62,197 nt of DNA. Source: Candidatus Nanopelagicales bacterium (GTDB lineage: Bacteria; Actinomycetota; Actinomycetes; Nanopelagicales; Nanopelagicaceae). The notes beneath the pieces are model-generated. The model did not search any database and was not told the DNA's origin. It saw only the letters and a list, made by a program, of their open reading frames with translations. Location of the stretch: the NCBI GenBank assembly GCA_030830475.1, contig JAURMX010000060.1, forward strand, positions 1 through 62,197, given 5' to 3'. Positions within the stretch are counted from its first letter, which is position 1. Each line of letters starts with the position of its first letter. The translations under genes and the position numbers were made by a program. Positions 16,102-51,183 of the stretch are shown piece after piece.

Positions 16102-17010
16102 ATGGATGAGTTAACAGCGGCTGGAATTATGCAACCAGCTCTTCGAGCCTCTTATGCAGAATGTAAAAGACTAAATTCGCTGCATGGTAAGACTTATTAC
16201 TTGGCGACTTTGCTGCTTCCAAAAGCTAAACGTCCCCACGTGCATGCCTTATATGGATTTGCTCGCTATGCCGATGAAATCGTTGATGATTTATCCTCCA
16301 CACTTTCAAATCAGGAAAAATCAGATTATCTGAGACGCTGGAGCGATCAGATGCTACAGGACATCTCTAACGGCAGAAGCTCTGACCATGTTGGGGCGGC
16401 CTTAGTAGACACGGTACAGAAATTTGAAATTCCCATCTCCTACTTTGAAGCATTCCTACATTCTATGGCTATGGATTTAACTGTGACCGAGTATCAAGGC
16501 TTTGATGATCTCATGGAATATGTTTATGGATCAGCTGCGGTAATCGGATTACAAATGGTTCATGTGTTGGGAACGTTAGAAGGTAAAAAGAATGAAGCGC
16601 TGCCTTTGGCGGAAAATCTCGGAGTTGCCTTCCAGCTTGCCAACTTCATTAGAGATGTTGGCGAGGATTTGCAGCGCGGTCGTGTTTACTTGCCCTTACA
16701 AGAGCTGAAACATTTTGGAGTCTCCAGAAAAATGTTGGCAGAGCGAAAGTTAACGCCACAGGTAATAGAAGCTTTGAAGTTTCAAATTAATCGGGTGCGT
16801 GAGCTTCAAGCCAAAGCTAATACAGGTATTGCCCTGCTAAATCCCGAGGCACGTCCCTGCATAGAAGCAGCCAGCGAACTTTATTGTGGAATCGTTGACG
16901 AGGTTGAAAAGGTTGATTACGACGTTTTCAATAACCGTGCCAAAACCTCAACCCTGCGTCGCGCCAAAGTGGCTCTACCAGCTTGGTTTAAAGCGATCCA
17001 GGCTCGGTAA
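16102..17010 (+). CDS. crtB: Phytoene synthase
   Basis: This 302-residue enzyme couples two geranylgeranyl diphosphates to phytoene, the first committed carotenoid step. It has both metal-binding motifs of the squalene/phytoene synthase family: DEIVDD (residues 58-63) and DVGEDLQRGRVYLP (about 185-198). The family block YVYGSAAVIGLQM lies between them. It is the last gene of the plus-strand crtE-crtI-crtB unit and ends two bases before the convergent crtYd stop, with no room for a separate terminator. Confidence 0.93.
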   Translation: MDELTAAGIMQPALRASYAECKRLNSLHGKTYYLATLLLPKAKRPHVHALYGFARYADEIVDDLSSTLSNQEKSDYLRRWSDQMLQDISNGRSSDHVGAALVDTVQKFEIPISYFEAFLHSMAMDLTVTEYQGFDDLMEYVYGSAAVIGLQMVHVLGTLEGKKNEALPLAENLGVAFQLANFIRDVGEDLQRGRVYLPLQELKHFGVSRKMLAERKLTPQVIEALKFQINRVRELQAKANTGIALLNPEARPCIEAASELYCGIVDEVEKVDYDVFNNRAKTSTLRRAKVALPAWFKAIQAR

Positions 17011-17012
17011 CC

Positions 17013-17318
17013 TTAATCTCGCTGTATGCCTTTTCTACCCCAATACATCCATAATGAAATGGTCATTACGATCATTGTAAAACCGAAAAGTAAATCTTCT
17101 AAAGGGGCGGCAGCAATTCTCAGTCCTGTTATCGCATCAGCACTGTAGGTAAGTATTCCTCTAGATGTGAGCCACCAGTTTGTTATTAATTGGAAAAATA
17201 CCAAAATTGCGTATGAGTTCCAAAAGCTTTTACGCTTCAAAATCCTAGAGCGGGTAATGTATAGATCAAAAACTACTACCAATGGAACGGCAATCAGAGC
17301 TAATTGGGTGTAGGTCAT
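17013..17318 (-). CDS. crtYd: Lycopene cyclase subunit CrtYd
   Basis: This 101-residue membrane protein has three hydrophobic helices and the cyclase motif APLEDLLFGF near residue 72, the C-terminal-half counterpart of PLEEFLFF in CrtYc. In actinobacteria CrtYc and CrtYd form a heterodimeric lycopene beta- or epsilon-cyclase. It is translated as the second gene of a two-gene unit: its start overlaps the crtYc stop by four bases. Cyclisation at one end (gamma-carotene) or both (beta-carotene) cannot be decided from sequence. Confidence 0.88.
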   Translation of the reverse strand: MTYTQLALIAVPLVVVFDLYITRSRILKRKSFWNSYAILVFFQLITNWWLTSRGILTYSADAITGLRIAAAPLEDLLFGFTMIVMTISLWMYWGRKGIQRD

Positions 17319-17647
17319 ACTTCATCTCCAAATGACCAGTGTTTCTTAACGGCGCGAACCGCTTCAATTGTCATCAAAGCTGCTAGCGGAACTACCAAGA
17401 AAAATAGAAACTCTTCTAACGGGATGCCAGATGGTCCATAAATCCCAACAACTTGTTGTTTATCAAAAAACCAGTGTCCAGAGTGGACAGCGTAATAATC
17501 CCACATCAGAAAAACTGTTGCGGTCGGAATAATGCTTAACAGCGCCCTTTTCATCCTTCGCAATACGCCAACTTTGAAAATAAATTCCAGCCAAAAAGAC
17601 CCCACCACTGTAAAGGCCAGCATGGCGAAGTAACTGTATTGGAGCAC
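17315..17647 (-). CDS. crtYc: Lycopene cyclase subunit CrtYc
   Basis: This 110-residue membrane protein has three hydrophobic helices and the conserved IPLEEFLFFLVVP motif near residue 76, together with DYYAVHSGHWFF. It is the first subunit of the heterodimeric CrtYc/CrtYd lycopene cyclase. It is divergent from the TPP riboswitch-pnuT unit with about 25 bases between its start and the aptamer. The enzyme would supply the cyclic end of the carotenoid, whose other end is treated by the CruF/CrtD-like/CrtA-like set, or feed beta-carotene to retinal synthesis encoded elsewhere. Confidence 0.88.
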   Translation of the reverse strand: MLQYSYFAMLAFTVVGSFWLEFIFKVGVLRRMKRALLSIIPTATVFLMWDYYAVHSGHWFFDKQQVVGIYGPSGIPLEEFLFFLVVPLAALMTIEAVRAVKKHWSFGDEV

Positions 17648-17671
17648 GTCTTATGTTAATCTCTATTCCAA

Positions 17672-17749
17672 TCGGGAGCCAAAAGTTGGCTGAGAGGACC
17701 TAAGGGTCGACCGTTAGACCAGTTCGGTAATGCGAATTGGAAGGGAGCT
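17672..17749 (+). ncRNA. TPP riboswitch (THI element)
   Basis: The segment has the conserved TPP aptamer parts in order: GGGAGCC, GGCTGAGAGG (CTGAGA at 17690-17695), ACCGTTAGACC, then GGTAATGC and GGAAGGGAG. The final AAGGGAG lies a few bases before the ATG at 17754, so it is both the closing strand of the aptamer and the ribosome-binding site. TPP binding would therefore hide the ribosome-binding site and shut translation. The conserved UGAU-type segment is a variant here. Confidence 0.85.
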
Positions 17750-17753
17750 AATC

Positions 17754-18335
17754 ATGTCTGTTTTCTTCACCGCTTGGGGTTATGGCGTCACCTATTTGGA
17801 GTTTGCCTCTGTAATTGCATCTTTTATTGCGGTAACTCTCGGGGCTTTAGGTAAGAGAATCGCCTGGCCTTGGTGGGTAATTAGCAGCACCTTGTACGGA
17901 ATCTTTTTTTACCAGGTTGATTTATTAGCCAGCGCCTTATTACAGATTGTTTTTATTTCAGCCGCGGTTTGGGGCTGGTTTGGTTGGAACGCCACTGGTG
18001 CCCAACCCAAATATATGAGCAACAAGGAACGCTGGATGTGGGCGCTGGCACTGATCGGCATGTGGTTGGTTAGCGCTCCGATTCTCTCTGACATTGGAGC
18101 AGCAGCATCTAGGCCAGATTCATTCCTATTGGTTTCCAGCACAGTCGCACAAATTGTTATGGTCTTGCAGCGCCATGAAGCTTGGAATTTATGGATTGGC
18201 ATAAATCTTTTTGCCACCTATCACTACTCAAATCAAGAGTTTTGGTTCACTGCAGTTCTCTATGTTGTGCTAACGTTTCTCGCAGTATTTGGCTGGTTTA
18301 GCTGGCGCAAAATGCAGCAGAAGGCTCAACTATGA
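17754..18335 (+). CDS. pnuT: PnuC-family transporter under TPP control, probable thiamine importer PnuT
   Basis: This 193-residue membrane protein has the PnuC fold: about seven hydrophobic segments, WWVISSTLYGIFFYQVDLLA, VWGWFGW, WNLWIGINL and a final FGWFSWRKM. PnuC proteins import vitamins by facilitated diffusion and need a cytoplasmic kinase to trap the product; PnuT is the thiamine branch. The TPP riboswitch directly upstream is the evidence for thiamine rather than nicotinamide riboside. The start is ATG at 17754 after the aptamer; an earlier in-frame ATG at 17730 lies inside the riboswitch and is rejected. The stop overlaps the kinase ATG. Confidence 0.85.
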   Translation: MSVFFTAWGYGVTYLEFASVIASFIAVTLGALGKRIAWPWWVISSTLYGIFFYQVDLLASALLQIVFISAAVWGWFGWNATGAQPKYMSNKERWMWALALIGMWLVSAPILSDIGAAASRPDSFLLVSSTVAQIVMVLQRHEAWNLWIGINLFATYHYSNQEFWFTAVLYVVLTFLAVFGWFSWRKMQQKAQL

Positions 18336-18910
18336 CAAAGAGTTCAGCTTTATCCCTTTCTGATGTTGTTTCAACCATAGAGACTGGTGAAAGACGAAGT
18401 AGATTTGCTCGGATAATTGCGATCGATGGTCATGCGGGCGCGGGTAAGACCACCCTCGCAAAAAAGCTGCAGAGTAACTACTCCGACCTAAAGGTTGAGG
18501 TAGTTCATATGGATGACCTCTATGACGGTTGGGATAACGCGCTCAGTGTGGCATTAACTAAGAACTTAGAGATTGGTATCGCAAAGCCAGTTAGTGAAGG
18601 CAAGTCATTCGAATACCGTAAGTTTGATTGGCTAAACATGAAGTACGGTGAACTTCAAAGATTCATGGTTCCAGATCTTTTAATTCTCGAAGGGGTTGGA
18701 TCTGGGCAACGGGCGGTGCGCAAGTATTTAGACCAGCTCATTTGGATTGATATTGAAGCTGAGGTCGGTTTAAATCGAGTTCTACGGCGTGATGGTGATT
18801 ACATTCAAAATCACATGATTCTCTGGCAAATGCAGGAATCAGAGCATTTTATGCAGGAAAACACCCGCGATTGCGCGACTATTCGCATCGATGGGATGAG
18901 TTTCATCTAA
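18332..18910 (+). CDS. P-loop NTPase of the uridine-kinase-like type, coupled to pnuT
   Basis: This 192-residue protein has a Walker A motif GHAGAGKTT (residues 33-41), a possible Walker B/acidic site HMDDLYDGW (about 58), LLILEGVGSG and an RDGDYIQNHMILWQMQESEHF lid-like segment. It resembles small-molecule kinases such as uridine kinase rather than any named enzyme I can identify. Its ATG overlaps the stop of the TPP-controlled transporter gene, so both would respond to TPP. A vitamin-trapping kinase, acting on thiamine, is a reasonable but unproven guess. No thiN or thiamine kinase gene is otherwise visible in the window. Confidence 0.75.
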   Translation: MTKSSALSLSDVVSTIETGERRSRFARIIAIDGHAGAGKTTLAKKLQSNYSDLKVEVVHMDDLYDGWDNALSVALTKNLEIGIAKPVSEGKSFEYRKFDWLNMKYGELQRFMVPDLLILEGVGSGQRAVRKYLDQLIWIDIEAEVGLNRVLRRDGDYIQNHMILWQMQESEHFMQENTRDCATIRIDGMSFI

Positions 18911-18920
18911 AATTCCATCC

Positions 18921-20807
18921 GTGTCAGATTTAACGGGTGAAGTAATTGATGGTCGATATCAACTCACTCGAATTGTTGCCTCGGGTGGCATGGCCACCAT
19001 TTATGCAGCATTAGATTTGCGTCTTGACCGGCAGGTTGCGGTAAAAGTCATGCATCCTCATTTGGCTCAGGATGAACAATTTGTCTCTCGCTTCATCCGG
19101 GAGGCAAAAGCTGCGGCCTCACTATCCCACCCCAATATTGTCGCCGTATTGGATCAAGGTTGGAATCAAGGTGGAACACCATGTGTTTTCATAGTCATGG
19201 AGCTAATTGAAGGTTCAACTCTAAGAGACTATCTACATGAGCAGGGTGCACTACCAGTTGAAAGAGCCCTGCAATTAGTTACCCCGGTGGCAAGTGCGCT
19301 CGCGGCCGCGCATAGGTTAGGAATTGTTCATAGAGATATTAAGCCGGAGAACATTTTGGTTTCCAAAGAGGGCCGCATAAAAATCGCTGATTTTGGATTA
19401 GCTCGTGGAGCTCTGCTCGGTAGCACCATGACCGCAGAGTCCAGTGTTATTTTAGGAAGCGTTTCATACCTCTCTCCCGAGCAGGTACAAAGAGGTGTTT
19501 CCGACGCTAGAAGTGATGTTTACTCACTGGGTATTGTTTTGTTTGAACTTCTTACTGGTCAGAAACCTTATCAAGGTGAAGATCCGGTTCAGATCGCAAT
19601 ACGCCATGTAAATGATCGTGTACCGGCTCCTTCAACACTAAACCCAAATATCTCACCAGAGGTCGATGAGTTGGTTTTGAAGGCAACCGATATAAATCCT
19701 GATAAAAGGCCAAAAGATGCTGGCGAGTTACAGGAGTTACTAAGAACTCTCTCTGAAAAGCTTGACCCCAAGCGAAGGCAGTTGAGTTTGGAGTTGGATC
19801 TTCCTCCAGTACAAATCAAATCAAACGCAAAAGAGAGCAAAAACCGAAACAAGAAAACTATCCAGAAAGAGGAAACTGTGGCGAAAAGAGAGAAAACCGC
19901 GTCCACAAAGAAGAGCAACGCCTCTCCACGGGTTAAGCGAAATCGGAGGATTGCGGTTGGGCTGGCATTAGTCCTCGGAATCTTTTCCTGGTACATAGTT
20001 GTTGGTCCGGGCTCAAGGGTTGTTGTGCCATCTCTGGCTGGCCTGACCACAAAGCAGGCTAAAAGCCAATTAGAGGATTTGGGTTTAAACCTAGTGATTG
20101 CCCGCGAAGAGTTCAGCGAGGATATTCCGGAAGGAAAGGTAATCTCTTCACAACCGGCTGGTGGAGGCAGAGTTGATACCAATGGAACTGTTGAAGTAAC
20201 CGTATCTCGCGGTAAAGAACGTTATTCAGTTCCCAATTTACAAGGTTTAAAGATTGAAGTTGCAGAGAACTTATTAAAGGATAAAAAGTTATTTTTGGGT
20301 GAGATATTAGAAGAGTTTTCCTCGGAGTTTCCTAAAGGTTTCATCATGCGCTCCGCTCCCACAGCAGGTGAACGGATTAAACGTGATAGTCAGGTCAACA
20401 TTTTTGTTTCAAAAGGTATTGAGCAGATTAGTGTAAGTAGTTACAAAGGAAAGAGTGGAGAACAAGCTCTAAATGAGCTGACTGAAGCTGGCTTCGAGGT
20501 AGATATCAAGTACATCTTCAGCGAAGATTTACCAATAGGTGCCGTAATAAGCCAATCCCCTTCAGCTGGTGAATTAGATAAGGGAGGCAAGATAAACCTA
20601 TTGGTATCAAAGGGTTCAGAGTTTGTCTTTATTCCTAATATTTTTTCCCTTGATCAAGACAAAGCGGTTGCAACGTTGAAGGATTTGGATCTCAAGGTGG
20701 TCGTTAAGACAGTTGGAAACAAGAAGACTAAGGTGGTTACCAACGTCTCACCAAAGGTAGGAACCAAGGTAAAACGTGGCTCATCAGTGACTATCACTGT
20801 AGGGTGA
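18921..20807 (+). CDS. Serine/threonine protein kinase with PASTA repeats (PknB/PknL type)
   Basis: This 628-residue membrane kinase has an N-terminal kinase domain with glycine loop VASGGMAT, Lys42 in VAVKV, HRDIKPEN (137-144) and DFGLARG. A basic, lysine-rich linker follows, then one transmembrane helix (about 343-361). The outside part carries four PASTA repeats, which bind muropeptides or lipid II; the last is short. Such kinases link cell-wall state to growth and division. The start is GTG at 18921. The region resembles the Mycobacterium pknL neighbourhood (prenyl synthase, kinase, aroG), although Mycobacterium PknL itself lacks PASTA repeats. Direct substrates are unknown. Confidence 0.92.
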   Translation: MSDLTGEVIDGRYQLTRIVASGGMATIYAALDLRLDRQVAVKVMHPHLAQDEQFVSRFIREAKAAASLSHPNIVAVLDQGWNQGGTPCVFIVMELIEGSTLRDYLHEQGALPVERALQLVTPVASALAAAHRLGIVHRDIKPENILVSKEGRIKIADFGLARGALLGSTMTAESSVILGSVSYLSPEQVQRGVSDARSDVYSLGIVLFELLTGQKPYQGEDPVQIAIRHVNDRVPAPSTLNPNISPEVDELVLKATDINPDKRPKDAGELQELLRTLSEKLDPKRRQLSLELDLPPVQIKSNAKESKNRNKKTIQKEETVAKREKTASTKKSNASPRVKRNRRIAVGLALVLGIFSWYIVVGPGSRVVVPSLAGLTTKQAKSQLEDLGLNLVIAREEFSEDIPEGKVISSQPAGGGRVDTNGTVEVTVSRGKERYSVPNLQGLKIEVAENLLKDKKLFLGEILEEFSSEFPKGFIMRSAPTAGERIKRDSQVNIFVSKGIEQISVSSYKGKSGEQALNELTEAGFEVDIKYIFSEDLPIGAVISQSPSAGELDKGGKINLLVSKGSEFVFIPNIFSLDQDKAVATLKDLDLKVVVKTVGNKKTKVVTNVSPKVGTKVKRGSSVTITVG

Positions 20808-49699: not shown

Positions 49700-51022
49700 T
49701 TACTTTGCGGCGGCAAAAGCTTTTTCTAAATCCGCCTTTATGTCGTTGATATTTTCAATACCGAGACTCAAGCGAACTAAACCTGGAGTGACGCCAGCTT
49801 GCAGCTGCTCTGCCGGAGTCAACTGTGAATGGGTAGTTGAAGCTGGATGAATAGCCAACGAGCGCACATCACCGATATTTGCTACGTGGGAGAAGATATT
49901 CAAAGCCTCAATGAACTTCTTGCCGGCCTCTACCCCGCCTTTGATCTCAAAGGAAAGCACTGAACCACTTCCTCTTGGACAGTACTTCTTGGCCAGAACG
50001 TTCCATGGTGAAGATGGAAGTGATGCGTAATTTACCTTTTCAACCTTCGGATGCTGCTCTAACCAACTTGCTACTGCAAGAGCATTATCAACGTGGCGTT
50101 CGATGCGGAGTGAAAGGGTCTCCAAACCTTGCGCCAACAACCAAGCATTAAATGGGGCCACAGCAGCACCAATATCGCGCAATAGGGTTAAGCGAATCTT
50201 GAAAATGTAAGCCAAATTCGCACCAAATGCGGAGCCAACCCCCAGTGCTTGGGCGTAAACCAAACCGTGATAGCTCGGATCGGGTTGATTAAAGTTCTTG
50301 AACCGCTCTGGATGCTTCGCATAATCAAATTTGCCAGCGTCAACAATTGCGCCAACTACCGCATTGCCATGTCCTGATAGGAATTTAGTTGCTGAGTGCA
50401 CAACGACATCTGCACCATGCTCAATTGGTCTGATCAAAAATGGTGTCGCAACTGTGTTATCAACAATTAAAGGAACACCAACAGAGTGCGCCACCTCTGC
50501 AACCGCAGCAATATCAAGAACATCATTCTTAGGGTTAGCGATGGTCTCGCCAAAGAAAGCCTTGGTGTTTGGTCGCACCGCTTTCTTCCAGCTCTCTGGA
50601 TCCTCTGGGTTTTCTACAAAGGTGACATCAATACCGAATTTCGGCAAGGTGTAATGAAACAGGTTGTAGGTACCACCATAAAGTGAGGGCGAGGAGACAA
50701 CATGATCACCAGCTTCAGCAACATTAAGAATTGCAAAGGTTGTCGCAGCAGATCCAGAGGAAACTAACAGAGCAGCTACTCCACCTTCAAGTGAAGCGAT
50801 GCGCTGTTCTACAGCATCCTGAGTTGGATTCATAATGCGGGTATAGATGTTGCCTAGCTCTGCCAAACCAAATAAATCCGCAGCATGTTTTGTATCGCGG
50901 AACTGGTATGCGGTGGTTTGGTAGAGAGGTAACGCCCTTGCTCCGGTAGTTGGATCTGGAACCTGTCCGGCATGAACCTGCCGGGTTTCAAACTCAGCAT
51001 TAGTAACGGAAAAAGATGACAT
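49700..51022 (-). CDS. metY: O-acetylhomoserine sulfhydrylase
   Basis: This 440-residue PLP enzyme turns O-acetylhomoserine and sulfide into homocysteine. It shows the Cys/Met-metabolism signature: ARALPLYQTTAYQF, ALLVSSGSAATTFA, and the PLP lysine in VVHSATKFLSGHGNAVVGAIV, then TPGLVRLSLGIENI. It lies behind a SAM-IV riboswitch and has a strong GGGGAGG ribosome-binding site. metX follows immediately. Together they give direct sulfhydrylation, without cystathionine genes in the window. Confidence 0.94.
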   Translation of the reverse strand: MSSFSVTNAEFETRQVHAGQVPDPTTGARALPLYQTTAYQFRDTKHAADLFGLAELGNIYTRIMNPTQDAVEQRIASLEGGVAALLVSSGSAATTFAILNVAEAGDHVVSSPSLYGGTYNLFHYTLPKFGIDVTFVENPEDPESWKKAVRPNTKAFFGETIANPKNDVLDIAAVAEVAHSVGVPLIVDNTVATPFLIRPIEHGADVVVHSATKFLSGHGNAVVGAIVDAGKFDYAKHPERFKNFNQPDPSYHGLVYAQALGVGSAFGANLAYIFKIRLTLLRDIGAAVAPFNAWLLAQGLETLSLRIERHVDNALAVASWLEQHPKVEKVNYASLPSSPWNVLAKKYCPRGSGSVLSFEIKGGVEAGKKFIEALNIFSHVANIGDVRSLAIHPASTTHSQLTPAEQLQAGVTPGLVRLSLGIENINDIKADLEKAFAAAK

Positions 51023-51039: not shown

Positions 51040-51183
51040 TAACAGGGGGCCTGACTAACTTTGGCAGACCCACGCTTGTCGATTGCGCCTTGCTATCGAC
51101 CTGGTCTTCACCCGGAGCACCCCACCGTGGTGGAGGGTTGCCGTCCAGTTAGCCGGGGCTTGAAACTGGAGCTCGTGACCTAT
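51040..51183 (-). ncRNA. SAM-IV riboswitch
   Basis: On the minus strand the leader reads, in order, GGTCACGAGCTCCAG, AGCCCCGGCTAACTGG, CGGCAACCCTCC, GGTGGGGTGCTCCGGGTGA and AGACCAGG, the blocks of the SAM-IV aptamer. After it, CCCCC (51045-51049 plus strand) can pair with the GGGG of the ribosome-binding site at 51033-51036. The 3' pseudoknot region continues to about 51050. SAM binding would thus shut off metY translation. Confidence 0.88.

Follow-up and report, generated by a model that had tools for sequence, protein, structure and literature searches.

A candidate non-orthologous thiamine kinase encoded beside the riboswitch-controlled PnuT carrier of acI actinobacteria

In lakes, the acI actinobacteria rank among the most numerous cells. 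They are thiamine auxotrophs, and the route by which they convert imported thiamine into TPP has been a gap. The passages of Kang et al. 2017 (PMC5301498) that bear on this question describe a THI element before pnuC in acI, propose thiamine import by PnuT and state that acI lacks almost every enzyme of thiamine salvage; the kinase considered here goes unmentioned in these passages. Which enzyme, then, could phosphorylate the vitamin once it has entered the cell? The question is raised by one locus in a window of 62,197 nucleotides (the whole stretch of DNA that was analysed), located on contig C52 in the draft genome (1.22 Mb, completeness 90.7%) of a Nanopelagicaceae (acI) actinobacterium. 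An earlier note had picked out a P-loop protein at this locus, coupled by an ATGA overlap to a PnuC-type carrier, as a candidate for the missing thiamine kinase or pyrophosphokinase of a thiamine importer. Whereas PnuT and its THI element in acI have been described before, a candidate non-orthologous thiamine kinase is new, and naming it makes the gap directly testable.

The pnuT–kinase operon and its TPP riboswitch

The kinase ORF occupies positions 18332–18910 of the forward strand and encodes a protein of 192 residues with a phosphoribulokinase/uridine-kinase fold, a putative thiamine kinase that would form TMP from thiamine and ATP. Its ATG overlaps the TGA stop codon of the PnuC-type carrier gene as ATGA (CTATGACAAAG). 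The carrier gene lies at 17754–18335 on the same strand, and its product matches NMN_transporter PF04973 (E 3.5e-34, Pfam) and TIGR01528 (75.9 bits, NCBIfam). Because a TPP riboswitch sits just 5′ of the gene, we take the carrier to be PnuT, a putative facilitator with probable specificity for thiamine. The start of pnuT is more likely the ATG at 17754 than the mechanically assigned 17730, since the latter falls within the TPP aptamer. Automatic annotation may begin the carrier 8 codons early (17730–17753).

The aptamer of the TPP riboswitch (THI element) spans 17662–17759 on the forward strand. Its match to RF00059, with an E-value of 4.7e-07 on the local stretch, reaches 40.8 bits and stays below the Rfam gathering score of 54.3; it is the sole TPP riboswitch match in the source genome. 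The call at this sub-gathering score is supported by conservation, since the motif lies just 5′ of pnuT in 81/81 loci with enough upstream sequence (at least 120 bases), as compared with 1/1660 shuffled stretches. A single-sequence RNA fold missed the aptamer (z −1.38); its identification relies on the covariance model and on conservation. Judging from the sequence and the aptamer alignment, a likely Shine-Dalgarno sequence, GGAAGGGAG (17739–17747, forward strand), overlaps the 3′ strand of the aptamer's closing stem P1, in which UUCCAAU (17666–17672) can pair with AUUGGAA. This overlap suggests that TPP binding should hide the Shine-Dalgarno sequence, that is, that pnuT would be under translational control.

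Genes outside the pathway flank the operon and serve as syntenic anchors. On the 3′ side of the kinase slot lies a gene for a PknB-type Ser/Thr kinase with PASTA repeats (18921–20807, forward strand); on the other side, at 16102–17647, are carotenoid genes encoding a phytoene synthase-like protein (forward strand) and two lycopene cyclase-like subunits (reverse strand). The carotenoid genes were identified by reading their translations, and the same neighbours recur in the loci of relatives.

We surveyed 121 Nanopelagicaceae genomes, 76 of which were classed as good (≥90% complete and ≤5% contaminated). The kinase was found in 112/121. In 81 loci read, with one genome counted twice (as L021 and L116), pnuT lies immediately 5′ of the kinase on the same strand. 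Apart from ten kinase-only loci and cases at contig ends, every locus read has the two genes side by side on one strand, and most genera of the family retain the coupled pair. This sustained adjacency argues against a chance ORF arrangement. An order-level search reached only this family again and is therefore not independent. Nine genomes lack the kinase: five are ThiE-positive (G005, G014, G020, G032 and G044) and four are incomplete (G056, G096, G102 and G110; 60–81% complete), and the contig of G096 breaks off within pnuT or at its end. In the genome G011, which has a ThiB transporter, a divergent kinase copy with ∼31% identity occupies the same syntenic slot (L080:1450–1995); this copy may be diverging in function or may belong to a fast-evolving genome.

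Fold, motifs and family membership of the kinase

Membership of the phosphoribulokinase/uridine kinase superfamily is indicated both by domain score (PF00485, 35.4 bits against a Pfam cut-off of 22) and by fold. When a profile was built from 44 relatives, its PDB matches included uridine kinases. The AlphaFold2 model of the kinase, with a mean pLDDT of 95.5, superimposes on human uridine-cytidine kinase 2 with a Z score of 19.2 (rmsd 2.4 over 166 residues), and on the related fold of NRK1 (2ql6) with a Z score of 13.0. With members of the superfamily such as UCK2 (1uej) and the Thermus thermophilus enzyme (3asy), the acI kinase shares the fold, the P-loop, the DxxY motif and an RD-type lid motif.

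Invariance of individual residues was scored in a 44-row alignment (A1). The Walker A motif or P-loop, GHAGAGKTT (residues 33–41; 18428–18454, all motifs being on the forward strand), has Gly33, Ala35, Gly36, Gly38, Lys39 and Thr40 invariant. It is followed by HMDDLYDGW (residues 59–67; 18506–18532), in which Asp61, Tyr64, Gly66 and Trp67 are invariant and Asp61 is the likely catalytic base by analogy with the uridine-kinase fold. Glu120-Gly121-Val122-Gly123 are invariant in the Walker-B-like region EGVGS (residues 120–124; 18689–18703), as are Arg153 and Asp154 in the lid arginine region RRDG (residues 152–155; 18785–18796). Trp100 (18629–18631) is conserved in 91/91 sequences of the family and in 33/35 distant homologues, and may contribute an aromatic side chain to the substrate pocket. 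The P-loop protein of the earlier note is thus confirmed in its ORF, its overlap with the carrier gene, its Walker A motif and its PF00485 domain.

The kinase does not qualify as a uridine kinase proper. It scores 33.4 bits against 220.3 for TIGR00235 and 37.3 bits against 180 for PRK05480, and it is missing the ydhpdafd segment that follows the DxxY motif. In uridine kinases this segment has a ribose-binding role; in the T. thermophilus uridine kinase it is an insertion relative to the profile of the acI family, which instead conserves Trp67, Trp100 and Trp138. The acI kinase scores highest against NCBIfam PRK06547 (NF005115), an actinomycete family annotated as ‘hypothetical protein’, which aligns at full length over residues 23–186 with the same core motifs; its score of 111.9 bits is under the equivalog cut-off of 173, making the acI kinase a homologue but not a member by cut-off.

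The protein had been described as unlike ThiN or other known thiamine pyrophosphokinases, and this description holds, since neither the ThiN/TPK families (TIGR01378 and PF04263) nor ThiK (TIGR02721) or an APH domain are among the Pfam and NCBIfam matches listed for it. ThiK/YcfN of Escherichia coli resembles the acI kinase in the reaction, thiamine to TMP, and the place upstream of ThiL that are proposed here for the latter; however, it has an APH protein-kinase-like fold, whereas the acI kinase is a P-loop protein of the PRK/uridine-kinase type with no sequence match to it. ThiN/TPK would share the role of trapping imported thiamine, but it is unrelated in sequence, is absent from the family and would bypass ThiL. 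In architecture, a facilitator with a trapping P-loop kinase, the pair resembles PnuC with a ribosylnicotinamide kinase (NadR or NRK), from which it differs in standing under a TPP riboswitch and in the context of the thiamine pathway. The carrier and riboswitch are the same as those of the acI PnuT with its THI element in the corresponding passages of Kang et al. 2017 (PMC5301498).

Thiamine pathway gaps and natural exchanges in the family

The distribution of thiamine enzymes across the family is marked by a conserved last step and few sources for its substrate. ThiL, the TMP kinase that converts TMP to TPP, was found in 118/121 genomes and in 76/76 good ones. ThiE exceeded its cut-off in only 7/121 genomes and ThiC was present in 2/121; ThiN was found in none of the 121, nor was ThiK over its cut-off. 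Since ThiL is kept without ThiE, TMP must come either from phosphorylated thiamine or from import. The earlier note had called for a search for thiN, thiL and thiE elsewhere in the genome and had counted a standard thiN gene against its proposal; in the source genome ThiL is present on contig C62, thiE was not found, and thiN was absent there as in all 121 family genomes. The absence of ThiN throughout supports the proposal that this protein is the missing thiamine kinase or pyrophosphokinase of these importers, as far as gene content can indicate. No match to ThiE, ThiC, ThiN or ThiK was obtained in the source genome, where, at 90.7% completeness, single absences are not final. The ThiL of the source genome (G000:C62:4–786, L111) is cut by the contig start and covers model positions 45–319 only, its N-terminus missing.

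Several weaker candidates for the missing enzymes were set aside. Weak ThiE matches (18–25 bits) were treated as unrelated barrels. Weakly ThiK-like proteins of the APH type (55–78 bits) occur in about one-third of the family, and for both of those examined the top-scoring model is choline kinase PF01633. The sole strong APH match in the source genome adjoins an acyl-CoA dehydrogenase-like gene, an unrelated context, and with 32.5 bits for the ThiK model stays below the cut-off of 299. Some genomes of the family encode choline-kinase-like proteins next to ssb/rplI-like genes (L261:1801–2739 and L263:1617–2546), and these could be auto-annotated as thiamine kinase.

Exchanges of neighbouring genes have occurred around the kinase within the family. 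Where pnuT is missing, at ten kinase loci, the kinase keeps its position next to pknB and the carotenoid genes. The TPP riboswitch of these genomes is found elsewhere, ahead of ThiB-type ABC transporter genes in the loci read, and all four ThiB proteins tested scored over the thiamine-binding-protein cut-off; the kinase of these ThiB genomes is without riboswitch control. Mapping the PnuT or ThiB label onto a tree of the neighbouring PknB requires at least six changes, so the transporter has been exchanged repeatedly while the kinase stayed.

A second exchange concerns the source of TMP. All well-covered genomes that lack the kinase belong to one clade and carry thiE. Of the 76 good genomes, three lack the kinase, and each of them has ThiE (Fisher p 1.4e-4 with relatives treated as independent, a value that overstates the complementarity because the ThiE clade is a single clade and represents one evolutionary event). 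Across all 121, the ThiE-positive, ThiC-negative genomes are exactly the five named above, each without the kinase; ThiC, ThiE and the kinase occur together in G003 and G076. The genes thiE, thiO and thiG fill the kinase slot between the carotenoid genes and pknB in the three loci read (G005, G014 and G032), so that pknB adjoins the kinase in kinase-only loci and the thiE/thiO/thiG slot in these kinase-less genomes. The TPP motif was matched in two of the three thiE–thiO–thiG loci (L101, L108 and L112). Alternative routes to B1 replace one another at this slot. G005 also encodes a CytX-like permease, which the HMP transporter model scores at 205 bits, and from their gene content the bacteria of the ThiE clade appear to import HMP and to make TMP with ThiE, in which case a thiamine kinase would not be needed.

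A thiamine kinase weighed against other functions

The explanation that we favour, and consider probable, is that the kinase is a non-orthologous thiamine kinase of the uridine-kinase fold that makes TMP from thiamine and so feeds ThiL. TPP control, coupling to the carrier, the retention of ThiL without another source of TMP and the repeated exchange of transporter together argue for it, and carry more weight than the complementarity of ThiE and kinase. We infer thiamine as the substrate and TMP as the product, along with the specificity and direction of transport. Low TPP would open the riboswitch and allow translation of pnuT and the coupled kinase; PnuT would equilibrate thiamine across the membrane by inward diffusion; the P-loop kinase would phosphorylate thiamine with ATP to TMP, which would be unable to leave and thus be trapped; and ThiL, encoded elsewhere, would convert TMP to TPP, which would close the switch. 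Several points count against a thiamine kinase. Imported TMP would also feed ThiL. The kinase is kept in place without a riboswitch once pnuT has been lost, which would also fit a function unrelated to thiamine. The joint presence of ThiC, ThiE and the kinase in G003 and G076, the weakly ThiK-like APH proteins in part of the family and the distant homologues without thiamine context count on the same side.

The same trapping of imported thiamine would be achieved by a thiamine pyrophosphokinase of a new fold class forming TPP in one step, as ThiN does, and ThiN is absent throughout. Such an enzyme is nevertheless unlikely because ThiL, kept in nearly every genome with ThiE nearly absent, would then be idle; moreover, the fold is that of kinases transferring a single phosphate. 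Between the kinase and the pyrophosphokinase that the earlier note had left side by side, these counts thus favour the former and make the latter less likely. Still less credence goes to a nucleoside-like substrate (nicotinamide riboside, uridine or similar) with a merely historical link to PnuT. PnuC carriers, the family of this carrier, classically pair with ribosylnicotinamide kinases, and the fold is closest to uridine-cytidine kinases, with NRK1 in the same fold class; however, TPP control at all pnuT loci with enough upstream sequence is unexpected for nicotinamide riboside or uridine, the TIGR00235 score and the missing ydhpdafd segment point away from a uridine kinase, and salvage of either nucleoside would not explain the loss of the kinase in the ThiE clade.

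TPP regulation would fit equally if the kinase salvaged a precursor from broken-down thiamine (HMP or hydroxyethylthiazole), but neither precursor can yield TMP without ThiE, almost every kinase-bearing genome lacks ThiE, and it is the ThiE clade with its CytX-like permease that has no kinase, which makes this role very improbable. We give just as little weight to a function unrelated to thiamine, for example a general role like that of PRK06547, in which coupling to pnuT would be a chance of position. The persistence of the kinase without pnuT and the occurrence of relatives elsewhere without thiamine context agree with such a function, but it would leave thiamine importers without a recognisable thiamine-phosphorylating enzyme, and both the coupled pair across most genera and its absence from the ThiE clade without explanation.

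Should the kinase indeed be a thiamine kinase, predictions of the B1 pathway in such genomes from ThiL and ThiN alone would be corrected, and an uncharacterised actinomycete protein family would gain a function. A survey of gut genomes (PMC6593275) takes ThiK, ThiM and ThiN as the signature enzymes of B1 salvage, and our search of the open-access literature, which covered PRK06547, uridine-kinase-like thiamine enzymes and new or missing thiamine kinases, found no account of the enzyme described here. The broader proposition, that a thiamine kinase of the uridine-kinase type is standard in acI and that PRK06547-like relatives do the same in other actinomycetes, is tentative, with the balance tilting somewhat against it. 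At the loci examined in Streptomyces-, Kribbella- and Cellulomonas-type actinomycetes, the distant homologues have neither pnuT nor a TPP riboswitch nor other thiamine genes nearby, so that context lends no support there. A phylum-wide profile search in other classes returned mostly P-loop-only matches, which were not counted.

The window also holds a SAM-IV riboswitch at 51067–51180 on the reverse strand (107.8 bits), just 5′ of a 440-residue O-acetylhomoserine sulfhydrylase-like ORF (49700–51022) and a 365-residue homoserine acetyltransferase-like ORF. From its gene content, this locus reads as an ordinary methionine operon.
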